The notes beneath the pieces are model-generated. The model was not told where the DNA came from, did not search any database, and saw only the letters and a list, made by a program, of their open reading frames with translations. From Thermoplasmata archaeon (GTDB lineage Archaea > Thermoplasmatota > Thermoplasmata > Lutacidiplasmatales > UBA184): DNA of 50,611 nt. Both the position numbers and the translations under genes were made by a program. The stretch lies in the NCBI GenBank assembly GCA_027315455.1, contig DAHUXZ010000017.1, positions 1-50,611 of the forward strand, read 5' to 3'. Within the stretch, counting starts at the first letter, position 1, and each line of letters starts with the position of its first letter. Shown here piece after piece: positions 8,438 through 16,475 of this stretch.

Positions 8438-11400
8438 ATGGGCGCACCGGGGCCATCGGCGTCCGCTCCGCGTCCGCCGTCCTCTCCTCCCGAGGAGGCG
8501 CGCCGGCTGTTCGCCGCGGCGCGCGAGCTCTCCGTGCACCACGACCCCGCCCGTCACGTGGAGGCGCTCAAGGCGTTCGTGGCGTTCGTCGACGGGCATC
8601 GCAAGGCGCTCGAGGACGCCCCGGCGGAGTTCGCGACCCTGCTCGACGAGGCCGGGGTCCAGCTCTACAAGCGCAGCGAGCTCGAGGTGGCGGCCCGCGC
8701 GATCGAGACCGGGCTCGCCCTCGCCCCCGGGTCGAGTTCGCTGCTGCACCACCGCGCGCTCGTCCTCCTCGCCCAGAACCGTAGCCGCGATGAGGTCCTG
8801 CCGCTTTTGGACGAGGCGCTCCAGGCGAACCCCCACGACAAGCAGATCTGGGCGACGAAGGGCGATGCCCTCAAGCTGCTCAATCGTCCCACCGAAGCCG
8901 TCGAGGCGTACCTCAAGGCCCAGCAGCTCGACGCGACGTCGATGCAGTACGTCGAGCGGGCCCTCAAGCTCGCCCCGCAGCATCCGCTCGCCCTGCGGAT
9001 GAAGCTCCAGCTTGCGAAGGCGCACGGCGGCGACCGTCAGGCCCTCGAGGCGTGCGAGGCGCTCCTCGTGGCCAACCCGGACGACGGGTCGCTGCTGGTC
9101 GCCCGCGCCGAGCTCCTGGCGGGCGTCGGCCAGATCGACGAGGCGCTGCGGGCCCTCGACCGCGCCGAGACCGCCCGGGCGGGTGACCCGAAGGTCGCGC
9201 TGCTGCGCGGTCGCTTCCTCGCCGCCACGGGCCGGGCCGCGGAGGCGCTCGCTCCCTTCCGGCAGCTCCTCGCCGCGACGACGCCGCCGGATACGACGAC
9301 CCTCGAGGAGATCGCCGAGATCGTCGAGCGGACCGGTGCCGACCCCGCGGTGGCCCTCGAGGCCCGGGAGCGCCTTCGGACCCTTTCGCCCCGCAACCTC
9401 GGCAACCTCTCGGCCCTGCGGGCCCTCGCGATCACCGCCGGTCGCACCGACCTCGCCCTCGCGACGTGCGAAGCGACCCTCGAGGTCTCCCCGCAGAACC
9501 TCGAGGCGATGCGCAGCCGCGCCGAGCTGCTCGCGTCGGCGAAGCGGACGCCCGAGGCGATGGGCGCGTACCGGGACCTCCTCGCGGCCCATCCGAAGGA
9601 GGTCGCCGAGGCCCGTCGCGCCGTGGCGTTCGCGCGGGACGCCGGCGACACGGCCGCCATCATCGAGTTCGCGCGTCTCTTGCTCGCCGCCGAGCCGGAC
9701 GACCCGGCGGCGCAGGAGGAGCTCGCCCAGGCGCTCGCCCTCACGGGCGATCGCGCCGGAGCGCTCGGGGTGTACGACCGGCTCCTCGAGGGGCACCCGG
9801 ACGCGGTCCGCTACCTCTGGGAGAAGAAGCAGCTCCTCAGTGACCTCGGCAAGACCGACGAGCTTCCGCCCGTGCTGGACGAACTGTTCCGACACGACCC
9901 GACCCGCTCGGACCTCGCCGTCGAGCGCGGCCACCTGTACCTGGCCCGCGCGTTCGACAGCCCGGAGGGCTCTCCCGAGCGGGAATCCGCCGCCCGCGAG
10001 GCGCTCGTGTCGTACGAGCGGGCGAGCCTCGACCCGACCCTCGCGGCCCGCAGCACCCTCGGCGTCGCGCGCGCCTCCCGCCTGGTCGGCGACCACGAGC
10101 GGGCGATACGGGCCTACCAGGAGTTCCTCGCGCGCCCCGGTACCCCCCCGCGGGCCGACATCGAGAAGGAGCTCGGCCACGCGCTGCGCGAGGTGGGCCG
10201 TCTGACCGAGGCCGAGGAGGCGTACGCGCGCGCCGTCGACCTGGGTCTCGAGGACCCGGACCTGTTCTGGGGCGAAAGCGAGGTCCTTTCGCTGTTGAAC
10301 CAGGAGGCGAAGGCGCTGCGGTTCGTGGACCTCCTGCTCGCCCGCGAGCCGCAGAACCCGCTGTTCCTGAGGCGGAAGGGCCAGCTCCTCCTCAAGGCCG
10401 GCCGCCGCTCCGAGGGTCTCCAGGCGCTCAAGGAGGCGGTCCGCGAGGCGCACGGCGACCCGCACGCGTTCTTCGAGGTCGCCGAGGCGCTGCGCGCGCA
10501 CGGGGCGTACGCGGACGCGATCGGCTACTACCATCAGGGGCTCGAGATCGACCCGAAGAGCCGCCCCGGCCGCCTCGCCCTCGCCGAGACCCTGGTCCTC
10601 GCCGGGCAGTACAACGAGGCGTTGCCGGTGATCGACACGCTCCTGCGCGAGGACCCGAACGAGCTGGCCGCGTGGAAGATCCGGGCCGATGCGCACCGGT
10701 CGCTGCGCCGGCCGTCGGAGCTGCTCTACTCGCTGAAGGCGATCCTCCTCCTCGACCCGCACAACGCCCCCGCCCTCCTCGAGAAGCACGCCCTCCACCT
10801 CGAAAAGGGCGAGCGGACCGAGGCGTTCGACTGCCTGAGCGCCGTCGTCGACGGCGGCGGCGCCGAGGGGAACGACCCCGCGGTCCTCCTCGCCCACGGC
10901 GACCTCGCCGCGGAGATCGGACGGACCGAGGAGGCGAACCGGTCGTACGAGCGCGCCCAGCAGCTCGACCCGGGAAAGGTGGCGTCGATCGCGGTGCGCC
11001 GGGCGCGCCTGCGGCTCACCGCCGGGCGCCCCGACCTCGCCCTCGAGGTGCTCGACCCCGTCCTCGGCCCCGCGACGGCGGGAGCCCCACGGAACGCCGA
11101 GGCGCTCGGGGTCCGCGCGGAGATCCTTGGCGCCCTCGAGCGGCCGGGGGAGGCCGAGGCGGTCTACCGCGAGGTCCTCGCGCAGGACGCGGCGTCGCCG
11201 GTGGCTCTCGCGGGCGTCGGCCGTTCGCTCCTCGACCAGGGAAAGCATGCCGAGGCGAGGGAGTTCCTCACCGGGGCGATCCCGAAGGTCGCCCCCTCGG
11301 ACGCCCTGTACCTCCTCCTCGCCGAGGCGCTCAGCGGGCTCGGCGCGATCCCGGACGCCGTCGACACCGTCCACAAGGGGGTCGAGCTAATGCCCCGGTC

Positions 11401-12934
11401 CGCTCCGTTGTGGGTCCGCCTGGGCGAGCTCGAGATCGCCCGCGAGGGCTGGCCGGAGTCGGCCGGCGCGTTCGCCCACGCGATCGCGATCGACCCCCAG
11501 AACGCGCCGCTGCACCTCCGCGCCGGGTTCGTCGCCGAGAAGCTCGGCCACCCGAACGAGGCGCTCGCCCTGTACGACCGGGCGACGCAGATCGCCCCGT
11601 CGGACAAGAACGCGTGGACGAGCCGGGGGCTGGCGCTCCTCGCGACGGGACGCCCCGACGACGCCCGGGCCAGCTTCGAGCGCGCCCTCGCCCTCGACTC
11701 CGACTTCGAGGCCGCCAAGGAGGGGAAGAAGGCGGCGACGCAGAAGACGCGCGAGGCCCAGATCGAGCGGTTCGGGCGCGAGGCGCTCCTGCTCGAGGCG
11801 AAGCTCCACCGGACGGTGACGAAGAACGACCTCTTCGTCACGCTCCATGTTCCGTTCGACCTGCTCGAACCCGTCCTCGCCGCCCTCGGGCGGAACCCCC
11901 GGGTCGCCATCGACCGCCTGAGCGAGTCCGAGATGCGCGACCTCGAGATGGCCAGCTACCATCTCATCACCACGGCGCTCCAGCGTCGTCCCGAAGGGAT
12001 CGAGCGTCGGGGCTTCACCCTCGCCGACGTCGCGGTCCTGAGCCCGGCGAACGCGACGCTCGACCAGGTCCAGCGGCTGTTCGGCTACCTCCGCAGCGTC
12101 CTCGAGCTCGACCTACGGGCCGAGAACCTCAAGCTCACCGCCGACGTCGAGGAGCTCGCCCGGCGCGCCCTCCTCCTTCCCGAGTCCCAGCGCACCCTCT
12201 TCCAGCTCGTGCGGACCCTGCGCGTCGGCGTCTACAAGGCGCGGGTCATCAAGGCGGTCGAGTCGGCCGGTGCCGCGGTCCACGCTCCGCTCCCGACGCT
12301 CGACCTCAGCCAGTTCTCCCCCGAGTTCCGGGACGGCGAGGCGCCCTCCGAGTCGCCGGCCGAGGGGTCGGCGTACTTCGCCCCGGAGAACGTCCCCGCT
12401 CCGGCCCCGGAGGCCGACGCGGGACCGGAGCCGTCCGTTCCGCCCCCCTCTTCGTCCGCCCGGTGCGTCGGGTGCGGAGGGATCGCGGCCGTCGTCCACG
12501 ACTGCGGGGCGGCGGTCTGCCAGCACTGCATCGCCCAGTTCCACACCTGCCCGAAATGCGGGCGGGCGATCTCCCCGCCCTCGACGCGGGCCTCCTCCGG
12601 ACCCCCTGCCGGGGGCGCGCACCGTGAGCCGTCCCCCGCCGGGCACGCCGGCCACCCGGCCGCCCACCCGGCGGCGGCCGCGACCCATCCGGTCGCCCAC
12701 GCGGGCGCGCACGCCGCGCCCCACCCGCCCGCCGCTTCACCTGCCGCCGCTCCGGCGGCTCGGGACCGCAGCCCCCTGCGCTCGGTCTTCGGCCGGTCGA
12801 AGGCGGGAAAGCCCGCCCCGCCGCCCGCTCCCGCACCGGTCCCTCCCGCGCCGGCGCCGGGCTCCGAGGAGACGGAGGCGCCCCCGCCGCCGCGACCCCC
12901 CCGCCCGAAGCCCGACGACGAGCCGCGGCTCTGA
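8438..12934 (+). CDS. Giant TPR-repeat protein (1498 aa) with C-terminal zinc finger
   Basis: Residues 20-1110 are a near-continuous array of 34-residue TPR units, e.g. AWTSRGLALLATGRPDDARA followed by SFERALALDSDFEAAKEG. Residues about 1115-1300 form a separate alpha-rich domain of unknown type (FVTLHVPFDLLEPVLAALGR, LFGYLRSVLELDLRAENLKL). A compact zinc finger follows, with C1343, C1346, C1356, C1361, C1364, C1371 and C1374 plus H1363/H1369, spaced like a RING or B-box. The last 120 residues are His/Ala/Pro-rich and end in Pro-rich sequence. No signal peptide or membrane segment is visible. It reads as a cytosolic scaffold. The same-strand genes downstream add more zinc ribbons and an SPFH protein, suggesting one system (inference). 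Confidence 0.88.
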   Translation: MGAPGPSASAPRPPSSPPEEARRLFAAARELSVHHDPARHVEALKAFVAFVDGHRKALEDAPAEFATLLDEAGVQLYKRSELEVAARAIETGLALAPGSSSLLHHRALVLLAQNRSRDEVLPLLDEALQANPHDKQIWATKGDALKLLNRPTEAVEAYLKAQQLDATSMQYVERALKLAPQHPLALRMKLQLAKAHGGDRQALEACEALLVANPDDGSLLVARAELLAGVGQIDEALRALDRAETARAGDPKVALLRGRFLAATGRAAEALAPFRQLLAATTPPDTTTLEEIAEIVERTGADPAVALEARERLRTLSPRNLGNLSALRALAITAGRTDLALATCEATLEVSPQNLEAMRSRAELLASAKRTPEAMGAYRDLLAAHPKEVAEARRAVAFARDAGDTAAIIEFARLLLAAEPDDPAAQEELAQALALTGDRAGALGVYDRLLEGHPDAVRYLWEKKQLLSDLGKTDELPPVLDELFRHDPTRSDLAVERGHLYLARAFDSPEGSPERESAAREALVSYERASLDPTLAARSTLGVARASRLVGDHERAIRAYQEFLARPGTPPRADIEKELGHALREVGRLTEAEEAYARAVDLGLEDPDLFWGESEVLSLLNQEAKALRFVDLLLAREPQNPLFLRRKGQLLLKAGRRSEGLQALKEAVREAHGDPHAFFEVAEALRAHGAYADAIGYYHQGLEIDPKSRPGRLALAETLVLAGQYNEALPVIDTLLREDPNELAAWKIRADAHRSLRRPSELLYSLKAILLLDPHNAPALLEKHALHLEKGERTEAFDCLSAVVDGGGAEGNDPAVLLAHGDLAAEIGRTEEANRSYERAQQLDPGKVASIAVRRARLRLTAGRPDLALEVLDPVLGPATAGAPRNAEALGVRAEILGALERPGEAEAVYREVLAQDAASPVALAGVGRSLLDQGKHAEAREFLTGAIPKVAPSDALYLLLAEALSGLGAIPDAVDTVHKGVELMPRSAPLWVRLGELEIAREGWPESAGAFAHAIAIDPQNAPLHLRAGFVAEKLGHPNEALALYDRATQIAPSDKNAWTSRGLALLATGRPDDARASFERALALDSDFEAAKEGKKAATQKTREAQIERFGREALLLEAKLHRTVTKNDLFVTLHVPFDLLEPVLAALGRNPRVAIDRLSESEMRDLEMASYHLITTALQRRPEGIERRGFTLADVAVLSPANATLDQVQRLFGYLRSVLELDLRAENLKLTADVEELARRALLLPESQRTLFQLVRTLRVGVYKARVIKAVESAGAAVHAPLPTLDLSQFSPEFRDGEAPSESPAEGSAYFAPENVPAPAPEADAGPEPSVPPPSSSARCVGCGGIAAVVHDCGAAVCQHCIAQFHTCPKCGRAISPPSTRASSGPPAGGAHREPSPAGHAGHPAAHPAAAATHPVAHAGAHAAPHPPAASPAAAPAARDRSPLRSVFGRSKAGKPAPPPAPAPVPPAPAPGSEETEAPPPPRPPRPKPDDEPRL

Positions 12935-12987
12935 GGTGGTCGGCTCGAGTTGCCTCACACCTGATATACTGGTTCCTACCATGATGG

Positions 12988-13539
12988 GTGGGTCCGACGA
13001 TGACCGTTTCCGGAGGCGCAGGGGGCCGGCGCGGGACCGTATCCGGTCTCGTCCTTGCGGTCCTCTTCCTCGCGGTCGCGGCGCTCCTCTTCGTCGCGGT
13101 CTACTACGTCCTACCCGGCCATGACCACTTCTACGGTCTGATCGCGATCGGCATCCTCAGCCTCTTCTTCGCGCTCGGCGCCTACCTCGCCGAAGCGTTC
13201 TCGACCCAGGCTCCGATCCAGCGGGCGGTCAGCTGGGCGTTCGCCGGCATGGGCTTCGCGACCCTTCTCCTCACCCTCGTCTTCGCGCCGAACTCGCCGC
13301 TGAGCTTCGTCAGCACGATCATCGGCATCCTGCTCGTCCTTCTGGTCCTGATCGTCGCGGTCGCCGGCACCCGGTGGCGCGTCGGCCAGGAGCGGGGCGT
13401 CGCCCAGCGCGAGTCGCAACGGGAGGCCTGGCGGGCCCGCCCCGCCCCCTCCGCGTTCACCTACGCGACGGCGCATCCTCCCGGTGAGGCGCCCCCTCCG
13501 TCGTCCGGCCCGGCCCCCCCGCCTCCGGGAGGGAACTAG
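12988..13539 (+). CDS. Four-helix integral membrane protein with Pro-rich tail
   Basis: 183 residues with four hydrophobic segments: GLVLAVLFLAVAALLFVAVY, GLIAIGILSLFFALGAYLAE, AVSWAFAGMGFATLLLTLVF and IIGILLVLLVLIVAVAG. A cytoplasmic basic/Pro-rich tail follows. The start is GTG 12988 or ATG 13000 in the same frame; GATATACT at 12963-12970 lies about 21 or 33 nt upstream respectively, so neither is decided. It is the first of four closely spaced genes (13541, 14283, 15483) and would be the membrane partner of the SPFH/zinc-ribbon proteins (inference). No family recognised. Confidence 0.75.
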   Translation: MGPTMTVSGGAGGRRGTVSGLVLAVLFLAVAALLFVAVYYVLPGHDHFYGLIAIGILSLFFALGAYLAEAFSTQAPIQRAVSWAFAGMGFATLLLTLVFAPNSPLSFVSTIIGILLVLLVLIVAVAGTRWRVGQERGVAQRESQREAWRARPAPSAFTYATAHPPGEAPPPSSGPAPPPPGGN

Positions 13540-13540
13540 G

Positions 13541-14269
13541 ATGGGGACGCCGGCGTCGTCGACCGCGCCCTCGTTGACCTGTCCATCGTGCCAGGCGCCG
13601 GTGGCGCCGGGGAGCCTCTACTGCAACCGGTGCGGCGCCCGCCTCACGAGCGCCACCGCCCCGGCCCCGCCGGCCGCGCCGTCCCCTTCCGCCGGCGCCC
13701 CGGCGCCCGCGCCCGCCCCCTCGGGGACGGCCGCGGCCCCCGTCGACATCCGCAGCCGCGTCGAGGCGGACCGCGGTGTCCTCAAGCGTCTCCAGCTTCT
13801 GATCCCCGGGTTCCGGGGCTACCGCCTCGACGAGGACATCCGTGCGGCGGACAACCTGCTCCGCATGCAGGTCGCCGACAAGGTCCACCGCGCGCTGACG
13901 GCGCTCGAGGACTGCCGCAGCGGTCTCGCCCAGGCCAATCAGTTCGGCGCGCTGACCGACCTCGCGAACGGGATCTCCGACCTCATGGTCCTCGAGGGGC
14001 GGATCCGCCACGCCGAGCAGGGGTACTCGGGGATCTCGGCGACGGTCCGCGTCCGCCCCAACACCCTCGACCGGCTCTACGAGTACGACTTCGGCTTCGC
14101 GCAGGCGGCCGACCAGCTCGCCGCCACCGTCGGCCCGCTCCGTTCGGCGATCGATGCGGCGAGCGCCGCGCAGATCCCATCCGCGGTGGCGACGGTCCGC
14201 GGACAGGTCCGCCAGCTCGACACGGCGTTCTCGGCCCGCATGCGGGCGATCGAAGGCATCCAGGTATAG
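13541..14269 (+). CDS. Zinc ribbon plus conserved helical domain protein
   Basis: 242 residues. An N-terminal zinc ribbon (C14, C17, C28, C31) is followed by an Ala/Pro linker (35-68) and a 170-residue all-helical domain starting VDIRSRVEADRGVLKRLQLL and containing GFRGYRLDEDIRAADNLLRM. This helical domain resembles the PspA-like or YdjG/YdjH-type partners of SPFH proteins in bacteria, but that comparison is from memory of the layout, not alignment. GGAGG sits 9 nt before ATG 13541, one base after the previous stop, so the genes are translationally coupled. Confidence 0.78.
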   Translation: MGTPASSTAPSLTCPSCQAPVAPGSLYCNRCGARLTSATAPAPPAAPSPSAGAPAPAPAPSGTAAAPVDIRSRVEADRGVLKRLQLLIPGFRGYRLDEDIRAADNLLRMQVADKVHRALTALEDCRSGLAQANQFGALTDLANGISDLMVLEGRIRHAEQGYSGISATVRVRPNTLDRLYEYDFGFAQAADQLAATVGPLRSAIDAASAAQIPSAVATVRGQVRQLDTAFSARMRAIEGIQV

Positions 14270-14282
14270 GAGCGACGACACG

Positions 14283-15434
14283 ATGGTAACGAACCAACCG
14301 ATCCCCCCGAAGGGCGGGAGCCTGATCGGCGCGACGACGGTGGCCTGGGAGGACGTCTACAAGGGCAACAACGTGATGTGGCGCGTCCCGCGCAACATCC
14401 GCTACGGCGACAACGTCGTCGTCCGCCAGGACGAGACCGCCGTCTTCTACCGCGACGGGAAGGTCCTCGCCTACCTCGACAAGCCCGACCGCTACGCGCT
14501 CACGAGCATGAGCGTCGGTGCCATCGGCAACCTCCTCCAGTCGCTCACCGGGGTCCGGCAGGAGGCGGAGGTGTACTACCTCCAGCGCCGGACGTTCGAC
14601 GGCAAGTTCGGGAGCGCCGAGCCCTACACCTTCCGCGACCCGGACTTCGGCCTTGTCAACCTGCGCGTCTTCGGCGACTATCGCTGGCGCGTGAGCGGTC
14701 CGGACCTCTTCATCAACCAGTTCGTGGGGACGTTCGGCGCGGCGACAACGGCCGACGTCGAGGGTCGGCTCCGCGACCAGATGGTCCTGCTCGTCTACAA
14801 CAGCCTGGGCCGGCTCAAGGACCAGGGGATGCGGGTGACGGACCTCGCGACGCAGCTCACGACGATCGAGCAGGCCGTCCTCGGCTTCTCCCCGCAGCAC
14901 TTCAATCCGTTCGGCATCGAGATCCAGCAGATCCAGGGCCTGTCGATCAACCTCCCCGAGGAGGTCCAGAAGGCCGTCGACACGCGGTCCACGATGGGGG
15001 TCCTCGGCGTGAACTATCTCCAGTACCAGGCCGGCCAGGCGATGACCACGGCCGCCGCGAACCCCTCCGGCGGCGCGGGCGCCCTCGCCAGCGCCGGCGT
15101 GGGGCTCGGTGCGGGGCTCGGGATCGGCTACGGCATGGCCGGCAGCATGCAGGGCGCGATGGCCGGCGGTTCGGTACCGTGCGGCAAGTGCGGGGCCCTC
15201 ATCCCTGCGGGCGTCCGGTTCTGCCCATCGTGCGGCAACCCCGTCGGCGCCGCCGCTCCTGCGGCCGGGGGGACGCCCTGCCCCAAGTGCGGCACCGTCG
15301 CAGCGCCGGGCGCGAAGTTCTGCCCGAGCTGTGGCGCGCCGATGGCGCCGCCGACCCGGGCCTGCCCGAAGTGCAGCACGACCGTGCCGGCGAGCTCGAA
15401 GTTCTGCCCGAACTGCGGGGCCACGCTGGGGTGA
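14283..15434 (+). CDS. SPFH-domain (virion-core/YdjI-like) protein with three C-terminal zinc ribbons
   Basis: 383 residues. Residues 25-250 form a Band-7/SPFH domain: WEDVYKGNNVMWRVPRNIRY, FFGDYRWRVSGPD-type core (here RVFGDYRWRVSGPDLFINQF) and FGIEIQQIQGLSINLPEEVQ. A Gly/Ala-rich hydrophobic segment (about 265-297) follows, then three CPxCG-x(8-9)-FCPxCG zinc ribbons from residues 300, 333 and 361. Bacterial relatives such as Bacillus YdjI recruit PspA to damaged membranes and sit with zinc-ribbon partners. ATG 14283 has GGAG about 9 nt upstream. It is the core of the four-gene block. Confidence 0.85.
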   Translation: MVTNQPIPPKGGSLIGATTVAWEDVYKGNNVMWRVPRNIRYGDNVVVRQDETAVFYRDGKVLAYLDKPDRYALTSMSVGAIGNLLQSLTGVRQEAEVYYLQRRTFDGKFGSAEPYTFRDPDFGLVNLRVFGDYRWRVSGPDLFINQFVGTFGAATTADVEGRLRDQMVLLVYNSLGRLKDQGMRVTDLATQLTTIEQAVLGFSPQHFNPFGIEIQQIQGLSINLPEEVQKAVDTRSTMGVLGVNYLQYQAGQAMTTAAANPSGGAGALASAGVGLGAGLGIGYGMAGSMQGAMAGGSVPCGKCGALIPAGVRFCPSCGNPVGAAAPAAGGTPCPKCGTVAAPGAKFCPSCGAPMAPPTRACPKCSTTVPASSKFCPNCGATLG

Positions 15435-15482
15435 GCCGGACCCCCTTGCGCCCCGACCGACCGAAACCTACGAGGTAGTACG

Positions 15483-16475
15483 ATGAACTGTCCCCGCTGT
15501 GGAACCCCGCTGCCCGACCAGGCCCGATTCTGCTACGCGTGCGGCGCCTCGCTCGGGGGGGGCGCCGGCGGCGCCGCTCCGGCCGCGCCGCCTCCGCCGC
15601 CTCCCCCGGCCGCGGTGACGCTCGCACCGGTCGGTGCGCAGTCGCTCACCTGCCCGAGCTGCGGAGCTCCGCTGCATCCCGTCTTCGGGGACATGGTCCT
15701 CACCTGCGAGTACTGCGGTGCCTCGGTCTCGCTCGGCGGGGCCGGGTGGAAGTCGATCGACAAGCACACGATGCTCGCGGCGAAGGTGATCGCCCGCGAC
15801 CAGGCGCTCAAGATCGTCCACGACCACATCGAGAAGGGGTTCTTCCACCGCAAGGACTTCGAGGAGTCGACGATCACGGAAGAGCGGCTCTCGTTCGTCC
15901 CGTTCTGGATCGTCCCCGCGTCGGCGACGACGAACTACACCTACCAGGACGTCGCCGTGGGGGTCGGCGGGACCGTCGCGTCGATCGCGGCGGCCGAGGT
16001 CCTCGGCGCGGCGCTCTCCGGTGGCGGGCGTCGCGGCGGATTCATGCCGTTCCCCGTCGTCACGGGCCCCCCCGTCAACCCGACCCGGCAGGACGCGATC
16101 GTCGGCACCTACGAGTACCCGGTCATCGCGGTCAAGGCGATGGCCCAGTACCAGCCGAAGGACTACGCCTTCGACCTCACCGACCGGACGATCTTCGACC
16201 GCAAGGGCGTCCCCCAGGGCGCGACGCTGCTCAACGGGGACATCGGGGAGGATGCGGCCCAGCACGCGGCGCGGGCGCATGTGATGCAGCTGCAGACGGA
16301 GCAGGCGCACAAGAAGCACATGATGGTGAGCGGCCTGCAGTGCAACGTCGAGATCTCGGACGGCGAGCTCCTCCACGTCCCGGTGTACTACTTCGTCCTG
16401 ACCCGCAAGGGCGTGAAGTCGATCATCCTCGTCGACGCCCACGGCGGGCGCGTCATGCAGGTCGTCCAGGCGTAG
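15483..16475 (+). CDS. Double zinc-ribbon protein of the SPFH cluster (YdjG-like layout)
   Basis: 330 residues. The first zinc ribbon uses C3, C6, C17 and C20; after a Pro-rich linker a TFIIB-type ribbon uses C57, C60, C75 and C78. The remainder is a beta-rich domain (SFVPFWIVPASATTNYTYQD, GELLHVPVYYFVLTRKG) ending VDAHGGRVMQVVQA. Proteins with this ribbon-plus-beta layout accompany SPFH proteins in other genomes (family recollection). A hydrophobic Gly/Ala patch at about 160-180 may touch the membrane. ATG 15483 follows GAGG by 7 nt. The 3' end overlaps the convergent zinc-ribbon gene by 23 bp. Confidence 0.8.
   Translation: MNCPRCGTPLPDQARFCYACGASLGGGAGGAAPAAPPPPPPPAAVTLAPVGAQSLTCPSCGAPLHPVFGDMVLTCEYCGASVSLGGAGWKSIDKHTMLAAKVIARDQALKIVHDHIEKGFFHRKDFEESTITEERLSFVPFWIVPASATTNYTYQDVAVGVGGTVASIAAAEVLGAALSGGGRRGGFMPFPVVTGPPVNPTRQDAIVGTYEYPVIAVKAMAQYQPKDYAFDLTDRTIFDRKGVPQGATLLNGDIGEDAAQHAARAHVMQLQTEQAHKKHMMVSGLQCNVEISDGELLHVPVYYFVLTRKGVKSIILVDAHGGRVMQVVQA

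Follow-up and report, generated by a model that had tools for sequence, protein, structure and literature searches.

The window analysed here, a stretch of 50,611 nucleotides that constitutes an entire contig (G000:C8) of the 1.98-Mb genome of a Thermoplasmata archaeon, carries on its forward strand a block of four genes, P2, P3, P4 and P5 in this order, in which P4 encodes an SPFH protein and which follows the gene for a giant TPR protein. We read the interval 12963-16475 as encoding an archaeal, PspA-free and membrane-associated SPFH scaffold with zinc-ribbon adaptors that is probably expressed from its own promoter, a system whose function we infer and a reading to which we assign a probability of roughly 55%. 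The conserved core of the block is the dyad formed by the P3 and SPFH genes, which recurs across Thermoplasmatota and extends to some methanogens and ANME archaea. The elements of the block are as follows:

12963-12970, + strand: TATA-like box GATATACT between the TPR stop codon and P2, a candidate promoter for the four genes that follow
13000 (ATG; or GTG 12988) to 13539, + strand: P2, small membrane protein with four predicted hydrophobic helices
13541-14269, + strand: P3, with a zinc ribbon (13580-13645) and a helical-bundle domain (13745-14266)
14283 (ATG) to 15434, + strand: P4, the SPFH/Band_7_1 protein, with the SPFH domain (14382-15002) and a Gly/Ala-rich linker
About 15168-15431, + strand: three C-terminal zinc ribbons of P4 (DZR and Zn_Ribbon_1 matches)
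15483-16475, + strand: P5, with two zinc ribbons, an alpha/beta domain and one marginal hydrophobic stretch
About 16248-16469, + strand: terminal helix-sheet unit of P5, suggestive of PepSY/YpeB (weak, non-significant YpeB structural match)

An earlier sequence-only reading of this DNA had described five same-strand genes between 8438 and 16475, and their coordinates and domain descriptions are borne out: all five open reading frames (ORFs) lie on the same strand and share a coding signature, with a GC content at third codon positions (GC3) of 0.89-0.94. The tight spacing that it had noted for the last four genes holds as well, with gaps of 1 bp (P2-P3), 13 bp (P3-P4) and 48 bp (P4-P5) and with GGAG preceding P4 and GAGG preceding P5 by direct sequence reading; the gap between the TPR gene and P2 is 53 or 65 bp. 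Its count of at least seven zinc-binding sites likewise stands at seven, namely one finger in the TPR giant, one site in P3, three in P4 and two in P5.

The conservation of the dyad was followed in three sets of loci. We searched a class sample of 150 genomes, 18 of them from the window's family, together with 14 control genomes, found an SPFH match (E<=1e-10) in 99 of the 150, and fetched 60 class loci at SPFH matches, each from a different genome and selected so as to span families and leave room on the contig. A scan of named genomes with the P3 alignment gave 169 confirmed loci, the best 80 of which were used, and 20 further phylum loci were picked from 36 phylum genomes that match the profile NF047596 (see below); the 80 named loci include 9 of the class set and 2 of the phylum set. 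For gene calling in these loci we used a simple script that weights the longest ORFs by GC3, not a gene finder. In the class loci, which were picked by their SPFH match, P3 immediately precedes SPFH on its strand in 59 of 60 cases, the single exception (L082) being a locus in which P3 was not found. The same arrangement is present in 77 of the 80 named loci, which were picked by their P3 match; two of the remaining three (L165 and L168) exceed our distance rule and the third (L171) stops at a contig end. Among the phylum loci, also picked by P3 match, it is present in 15 of 20; one further locus has a P5-like gene between P3 and SPFH, and in four an SPFH match at E<=1e-3 was not found, though a 378-408-aa ORF follows P3. 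Carriers of the dyad include Candidatus Methanoperedens BLZ2 (L137), an ANME-2 archaeon (L127) and Methanocorpusculum parvum XII (L161), in which the gene run reads c3-c3-c4-four-helix-P3-SPFH, c3 and c4 being families that occupy the P5 slot outside the window. When plasmids were searched, none matched P3, and SPFH matched 21 records, each at less than 60% identity and all bacterial by genus tally.

P4 matches PF13421 (Band_7_1) well above threshold (E 3.6e-33, 115.4 bits versus a cut-off of 24), a family that is present in 4 of the 14 control genomes, B. subtilis among them. Neither the window's SPFH protein nor 131 of the 133 SPFH ORFs of its relatives has a hydrophobic helix. An automatic count of CxxC motifs on SPFH returned zero in 8, 30 and 3 loci, which we ascribe in part to cut contigs or a wrong frame. 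The zinc ribbon of P3 scores just below the cut-off of Zn_Ribbon_1 (E 2.6e-5, 24.3 versus 25 bits); a ribbon of its own occurs in 37 of 123 called P3 ORFs, and in the class set the ribbon-bearing P3s come from the window's family only (L033-L036, L038-L040, L042). Elsewhere P3 is mostly a helical protein of about 176 aa. An AlphaFold2 model of P3 (mean pLDDT 85.7, pTM 0.82) shows four longer helices bundled together, after a short N-terminal segment with the invariant motif PG..GYR..ED.R. Profile comparison of P3 with the sequences of solved structures gave eight matches at E<=1, several of which are designed proteins by name, with the chain "PS1" as the best (E 0.0026); the same comparison with SPFH gave one match (E 0.1). 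The helical domain of P3 also matches nearly the whole of the NCBIfam profile NF047596 (LIMLP_15305), weakly (E 5.4e-9, 36.2 bits versus a cut-off of 210) and consistently: 36 of 97 phylum genomes match it at E<=0.001, none over cut-off, versus 0 of 14 controls. LIMLP locus tags are those of Leptospira. In a Leptospira paper, LIMLP_15305 appears in a table that lists non-coding RNAs with neighbouring genes (PMC7567364).

The genes around the dyad vary more. P2 has no Pfam family over cut-off, which agrees with the earlier suggestion that the membrane subunit looks new. It is profile-related to a four-helix protein that other families encode downstream of SPFH (TM17-TM36, probability 97.0%) and has no detectable relation to a second four-helix type (probability 0.2%). 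A four-helix ORF lies beside the dyad in 26 of 59 class, 49 of 79 named and 5 of 16 phylum loci, as counted by a hydropathy heuristic that missed some (L035 and L079 were scored without one, yet it is present). A same-strand gene for a protein of the P5 superfamily lies no more than 2.5 kb from SPFH in 43 of 60 class, 62 of 80 named and 6 of 20 phylum loci, and P5 is related by profile to the families in its slot elsewhere (c3, 99.4%; c15, 98.6%; c4, 92.1%). One or two hydrophobic helices were predicted in 62 of 65 ORFs of the c3/c15 type; among P5-type relatives, 52 of 57 have none and 5 have one. The model of P5 (mean pLDDT 80.3) ends in a helix and four strands, a terminus that is suggestive, and only suggestive, of a PepSY/YpeB-like unit. 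Large ORFs (about 990-1466 aa, with 0-5 predicted membrane helices) lie downstream of SPFH/P5 in L132, L133, L148, L155, L164 and L168, some of which our simple ORF picker may have invented in GC-rich DNA.

A close known counterpart is the pspA-ydjGHI operon of B. subtilis. YdjI is an SPFH protein that is predicted to be soluble and carries a zinc-finger motif near its C-terminus; it depends on the membrane proteins YdjG and YdjH for its membrane localisation, and PspA in turn depends on YdjI to be positioned there (PMC8581546). YdjG combines two zinc ribbons with a YpeB-related domain, and YdjH is a TPM protein (PMC11237479). Like this system, the window encodes a PF13421 SPFH protein with C-terminal zinc ribbons and no predicted membrane helix, a zinc-ribbon partner (P5) with, possibly, a YpeB-related domain, and a separate membrane protein. 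Unlike it, the block has P3 as an extra, near-obligate partner and three ribbons on the SPFH protein, and P5 has just one marginal hydrophobic stretch where YdjG has a membrane helix. None of the 150 class genomes has a PspA (PF04012) match over cut-off and 6 of them have one at E<=0.001, whereas 9 of the 14 controls matched; on this count we rejected a PspA gene located outside the block as a partner. No TPM domain was among the Pfam matches (E<=0.1) of the five proteins, taking for the TPR giant the best 25 of 26 families. The likeness to the bacterial YdjFGHI module that the sequence-only reading had drawn is thus sound for the SPFH protein and weakly so for P5, and fails for PspA and the TPM domain; by analogy, the block may work like the PspA-YdjGHI system without being a member of it. 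The main text of a 2009 classification of prokaryotic SPFH proteins contains neither 'zinc' nor 'YdjI' (PMC2636767).

A second comparison concerns archaeal ESCRT loci. The Meth_adaptin ESCRT loci of Methanobacteriales include an SPFH protein with a zinc ribbon and a coiled coil (Makarova et al. 2024, PMC10936438). As described there, they resemble the window in having an archaeal zinc-ribbon SPFH protein in a multi-gene membrane locus and differ from it in that this protein has a coiled coil and sits with ESCRT components and adaptin-like proteins. None of the 18 genomes sampled from the window's family had an ESCRT-III match (Snf7, PF03357), and 12 of the 150 class genomes had one at E<=0.001, 7 of them over cut-off, in a search that matched 1 of 14 controls, below cut-off, and may miss divergent ESCRT-III. 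A mutual exclusion of SPFH and Snf7 in the class sample (Snf7 in 0 of 99 versus 7 of 51 genomes, p 4e-4) was considered and dropped, for in family f19 four of 77 genomes have both P3 and Snf7; there, P3 occurs in 32 genomes and Snf7 in 21, a loose inverse pattern (Fisher p 0.019).

Whether the upstream TPR gene belongs to the same system bears directly on where the unit begins. Its features, and those of its product, are:

8438-12934, + strand: TPR giant, 1498 aa, combining TPR repeats with a C-terminal domain, a zinc finger and a tail of low complexity; neighbour, probably outside the core module
11750-12430, + strand: C-terminal domain of the TPR giant, about 227 aa
12464-12559, + strand: zinc finger of the TPR giant, CxxC-x7-HxC-x4-CxxC-x6-CxxC, with sub-threshold RING-like Pfam matches only

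The 227-aa domain has no Pfam match at E<=1. This C-terminal part was found in 104 of the 150 class genomes (E<=1e-4), and relatives outside the window's family are mostly 21-35% identical and mostly lie in open frames of 1300-1550 aa. SPFH and TPR occur together in 82 class genomes, SPFH only in 17, TPR only in 22 and neither in 29. The sequence-only reading had proposed a single five-subunit platform in which the TPR giant is the structural scaffold of the SPFH complex, and part of the evidence favours it: of the 18 genomes sampled from the window's family, 14 have the TPR gene immediately before the block by coordinates and hand count, and one genome (G094, L190) has a run of TPR, a 182-aa ORF and P3 up to the contig end, with an SPFH gene that is probably missing through an assembly gap. 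SPFH and the TPR C-terminal domain moreover co-occur above expectation (Fisher p 1.5e-6), so a functional link is possible, the test ignoring phylogeny. In family f8 (L083-L087), c25, a different protein that has CxxC pairs and matches TPR below threshold, and the zinc-ribbon-like c26 lie upstream of P3-SPFH and are possibly a second, independent TPR/zinc companion. The distribution of the two genes nevertheless speaks against this platform, which we regard as improbable. The 14 genomes in which TPR and SPFH are neighbours all belong to the window's family (11 from genus g1, 2 from g3 and 1 from g4, by hand count), and in the other 68 of the 82 they are not neighbours; 62 of these have them on different contigs, weak evidence alone in fragmented assemblies, and six (G015, G026, G061, G069, G091 and G145) have them on one contig, at least 149 kb apart. 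Of the 60 class loci, 8 contain TPR, 7 have too little room, and 45 have at least 6 kb upstream without a strong TPR match; this last count is an outcome that the sequence-only reading had itself named as refuting it, and the TPR giant is not supported as a subunit. In three genomes of genus g2 (L187-L189) TPR and SPFH are on different contigs and the TPR gene keeps its HD-domain neighbour, which in the window matches Pfam HD and HD_assoc_2, rather than the SPFH block. The TPR neighbours vary by family: the HD gene in the window's, the short divergent ORF k2 in 4 of 20 loci and a further gene, k3, in 4 of 20.

A candidate promoter separates the TPR gene from P2. The TATA-like box occurs in 29 of 40 P2 upstream regions, versus a mean of 1.13 and a maximum of 4 in 200 shuffles, and in 0 of 40 and 0 of 40 of the 100-nt regions preceding the first residue aligned in P3 and in SPFH, respectively. 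From these sequence patterns the block probably has its own promoter between TPR and P2. On the basis of the TPR distribution together with the TATA-like box, we conclude that the natural unit is probably P2-P3-SPFH-P5 and not a five-gene system. Of the single assembled system first proposed, what stands is the tight same-strand block with its conserved core; the TPR giant is probably a separate ancient protein that was placed before the block in one lineage and is not required.

Other explanations of the block itself have to be weighed. One is a Psp-type system in which P3 replaces PspA as the membrane-remodelling effector recruited by SPFH. P3 lies upstream of SPFH as pspA does in pspA-ydjGHI (where two genes intervene), it is all-helical, and none of the 150 class genomes has PspA over cut-off. 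We still consider this unlikely, as P3 is a short four-helix bundle and no PspA or ESCRT-III structure is among the best 50 of its 605 structural matches, and as the inverse relation to ESCRT-III is a loose one. A defence island, directed against phages or otherwise, is much less probable again: SPFH and zinc-ribbon proteins do occur in some conflict systems, but none of the five proteins matched a PADLOC family at E<=0.01, and the dyad is widespread and mostly present in one copy per genome, unlike a mobile defence island.

The least credible alternative, a RING/E2-type ubiquitin-like conjugation platform, would use the finger of the TPR giant and a nearby protein that ends in two glycines:

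1080-1376, - strand: GG-ended ORF, 98 aa, with the end VVPTFSGG

This ORF, the GG-ended protein of the earlier note, exceeds the cut-offs of both SAMP2 (31.8 versus 27 bits) and ThiS (31.8 versus 22.5 bits); it lies 7 kb away on the opposite strand, outside the block. The description of the finger as RING/B-box-like is apt in part. Both in the window and in its kin, its eight potential ligands follow a RING-like order, and a loose pattern for it recurs in 32 of 38 ORFs labelled TPR near SPFH, the other six being short, cut or doubtful. By Pfam score it is only weakly RING-like, all matches being below cut-off (Zn_ribbon_SprT, E 0.046; Prok-RING_4, E 0.057; zf-C3HC4_3, E 0.081) and the best RING-family score reaching 13.8 versus 27 bits. 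Away from SPFH, 7 of 20 TPR loci have the pattern and 13 fail it; a variant, often with CxxH in place of the first CxxC (B-box-like), was seen by eye in 11 of these, and in L200 and L206 no finger was seen in the part inspected. None of the 18 genomes sampled from the window's family matched E2 (UQ_con, PF00179), although such E2-like domains are over cut-off in 66 of the 150 class genomes (for example at G015:C1:1628513-1628959) and in 0 of 14 controls; among the open-access titles and abstract starts listed, none dealt with E2 in this class. We therefore reject RING/E2-type chemistry, which the sequence-only reading had entertained, on the missing E2 match in the sampled genomes of the family and the weak finger scores. 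SAMP conjugation without E2 occurs elsewhere, and SAMP may be in use elsewhere in the cell.

Several observations weigh against our own reading of a PspA-free SPFH scaffold with its own promoter. A Foldseek search with the P3 model gave 0 of 605 matches to solved structures at E<=0.001 and a structure search with the P5 model 0 of 136, and because there is no significant solved-structure match, the roles of P3 and P5 are guesses. The C-terminal domain of YpeB (5boi) ranks second among the structural matches of P5, at E 1.7 only; the Bacteroides proteins at ranks 1, 4 and 17 are PepSY/BLIP-like. By the pattern used, the TATA-like box is absent from 11 of the 40 P2 upstream regions, which include near-duplicates and were compared with control regions that are largely coding. 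In nine of the 60 class loci (L044-L051 and L053) no four-helix ORF was seen next to the dyad and no hydrophobic helix in SPFH or P5, so a dedicated anchor is not universal. Finally, 51 of the 150 class genomes, many of them incomplete, are without an SPFH match, and the module may therefore be dispensable.

If the SPFH scaffold reading is correct, the soluble, YdjI-type SPFH protein would oligomerise into a ring or cage on the inner membrane face and be held there by P2, the anchor in other lineages being a different small four-helix protein or a helix-bearing P5-type protein. The helical bundle of P3, a near-obligate partner, would dock directly on SPFH, and the ribbons of P3, P5 and the SPFH C-terminus would serve as protein-protein adaptors, with the PepSY/YpeB-like domain of P5 binding or sensing a client. 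Such an assembly might organise or protect the membrane or hold damaged membrane proteins, as SPFH proteins do elsewhere, and the TPR giant may assist the block in its one lineage.

As a tentative and decidedly more speculative extension, P3-SPFH could be an ancient archaeal machine for membrane repair or organisation, independent of PspA and ESCRT-III, in which P3, a new helical-bundle family, would be the effector assembled by a zinc-ribbon SPFH cage while lineages swap anchors (two four-helix proteins without detectable relation or P5-type helices) and add accessories such as the TPR giant. We found no paper describing the dyad among the titles and abstract starts of the open-access literature, subscription papers and supplements lying outside this scope; the P3-SPFH gene set appears widely shared and unstudied. 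Its existence means that the SPFH-zinc-ribbon part of the bacterial module occurs without PspA. With PspA over cut-off in none and ESCRT-III in 7 of the 150 class genomes, the P3-SPFH core is a concrete candidate for guarding the membrane in these archaea, and the presence of the dyad in a named strain, Methanocorpusculum parvum XII, makes its study possible outside metagenomes.

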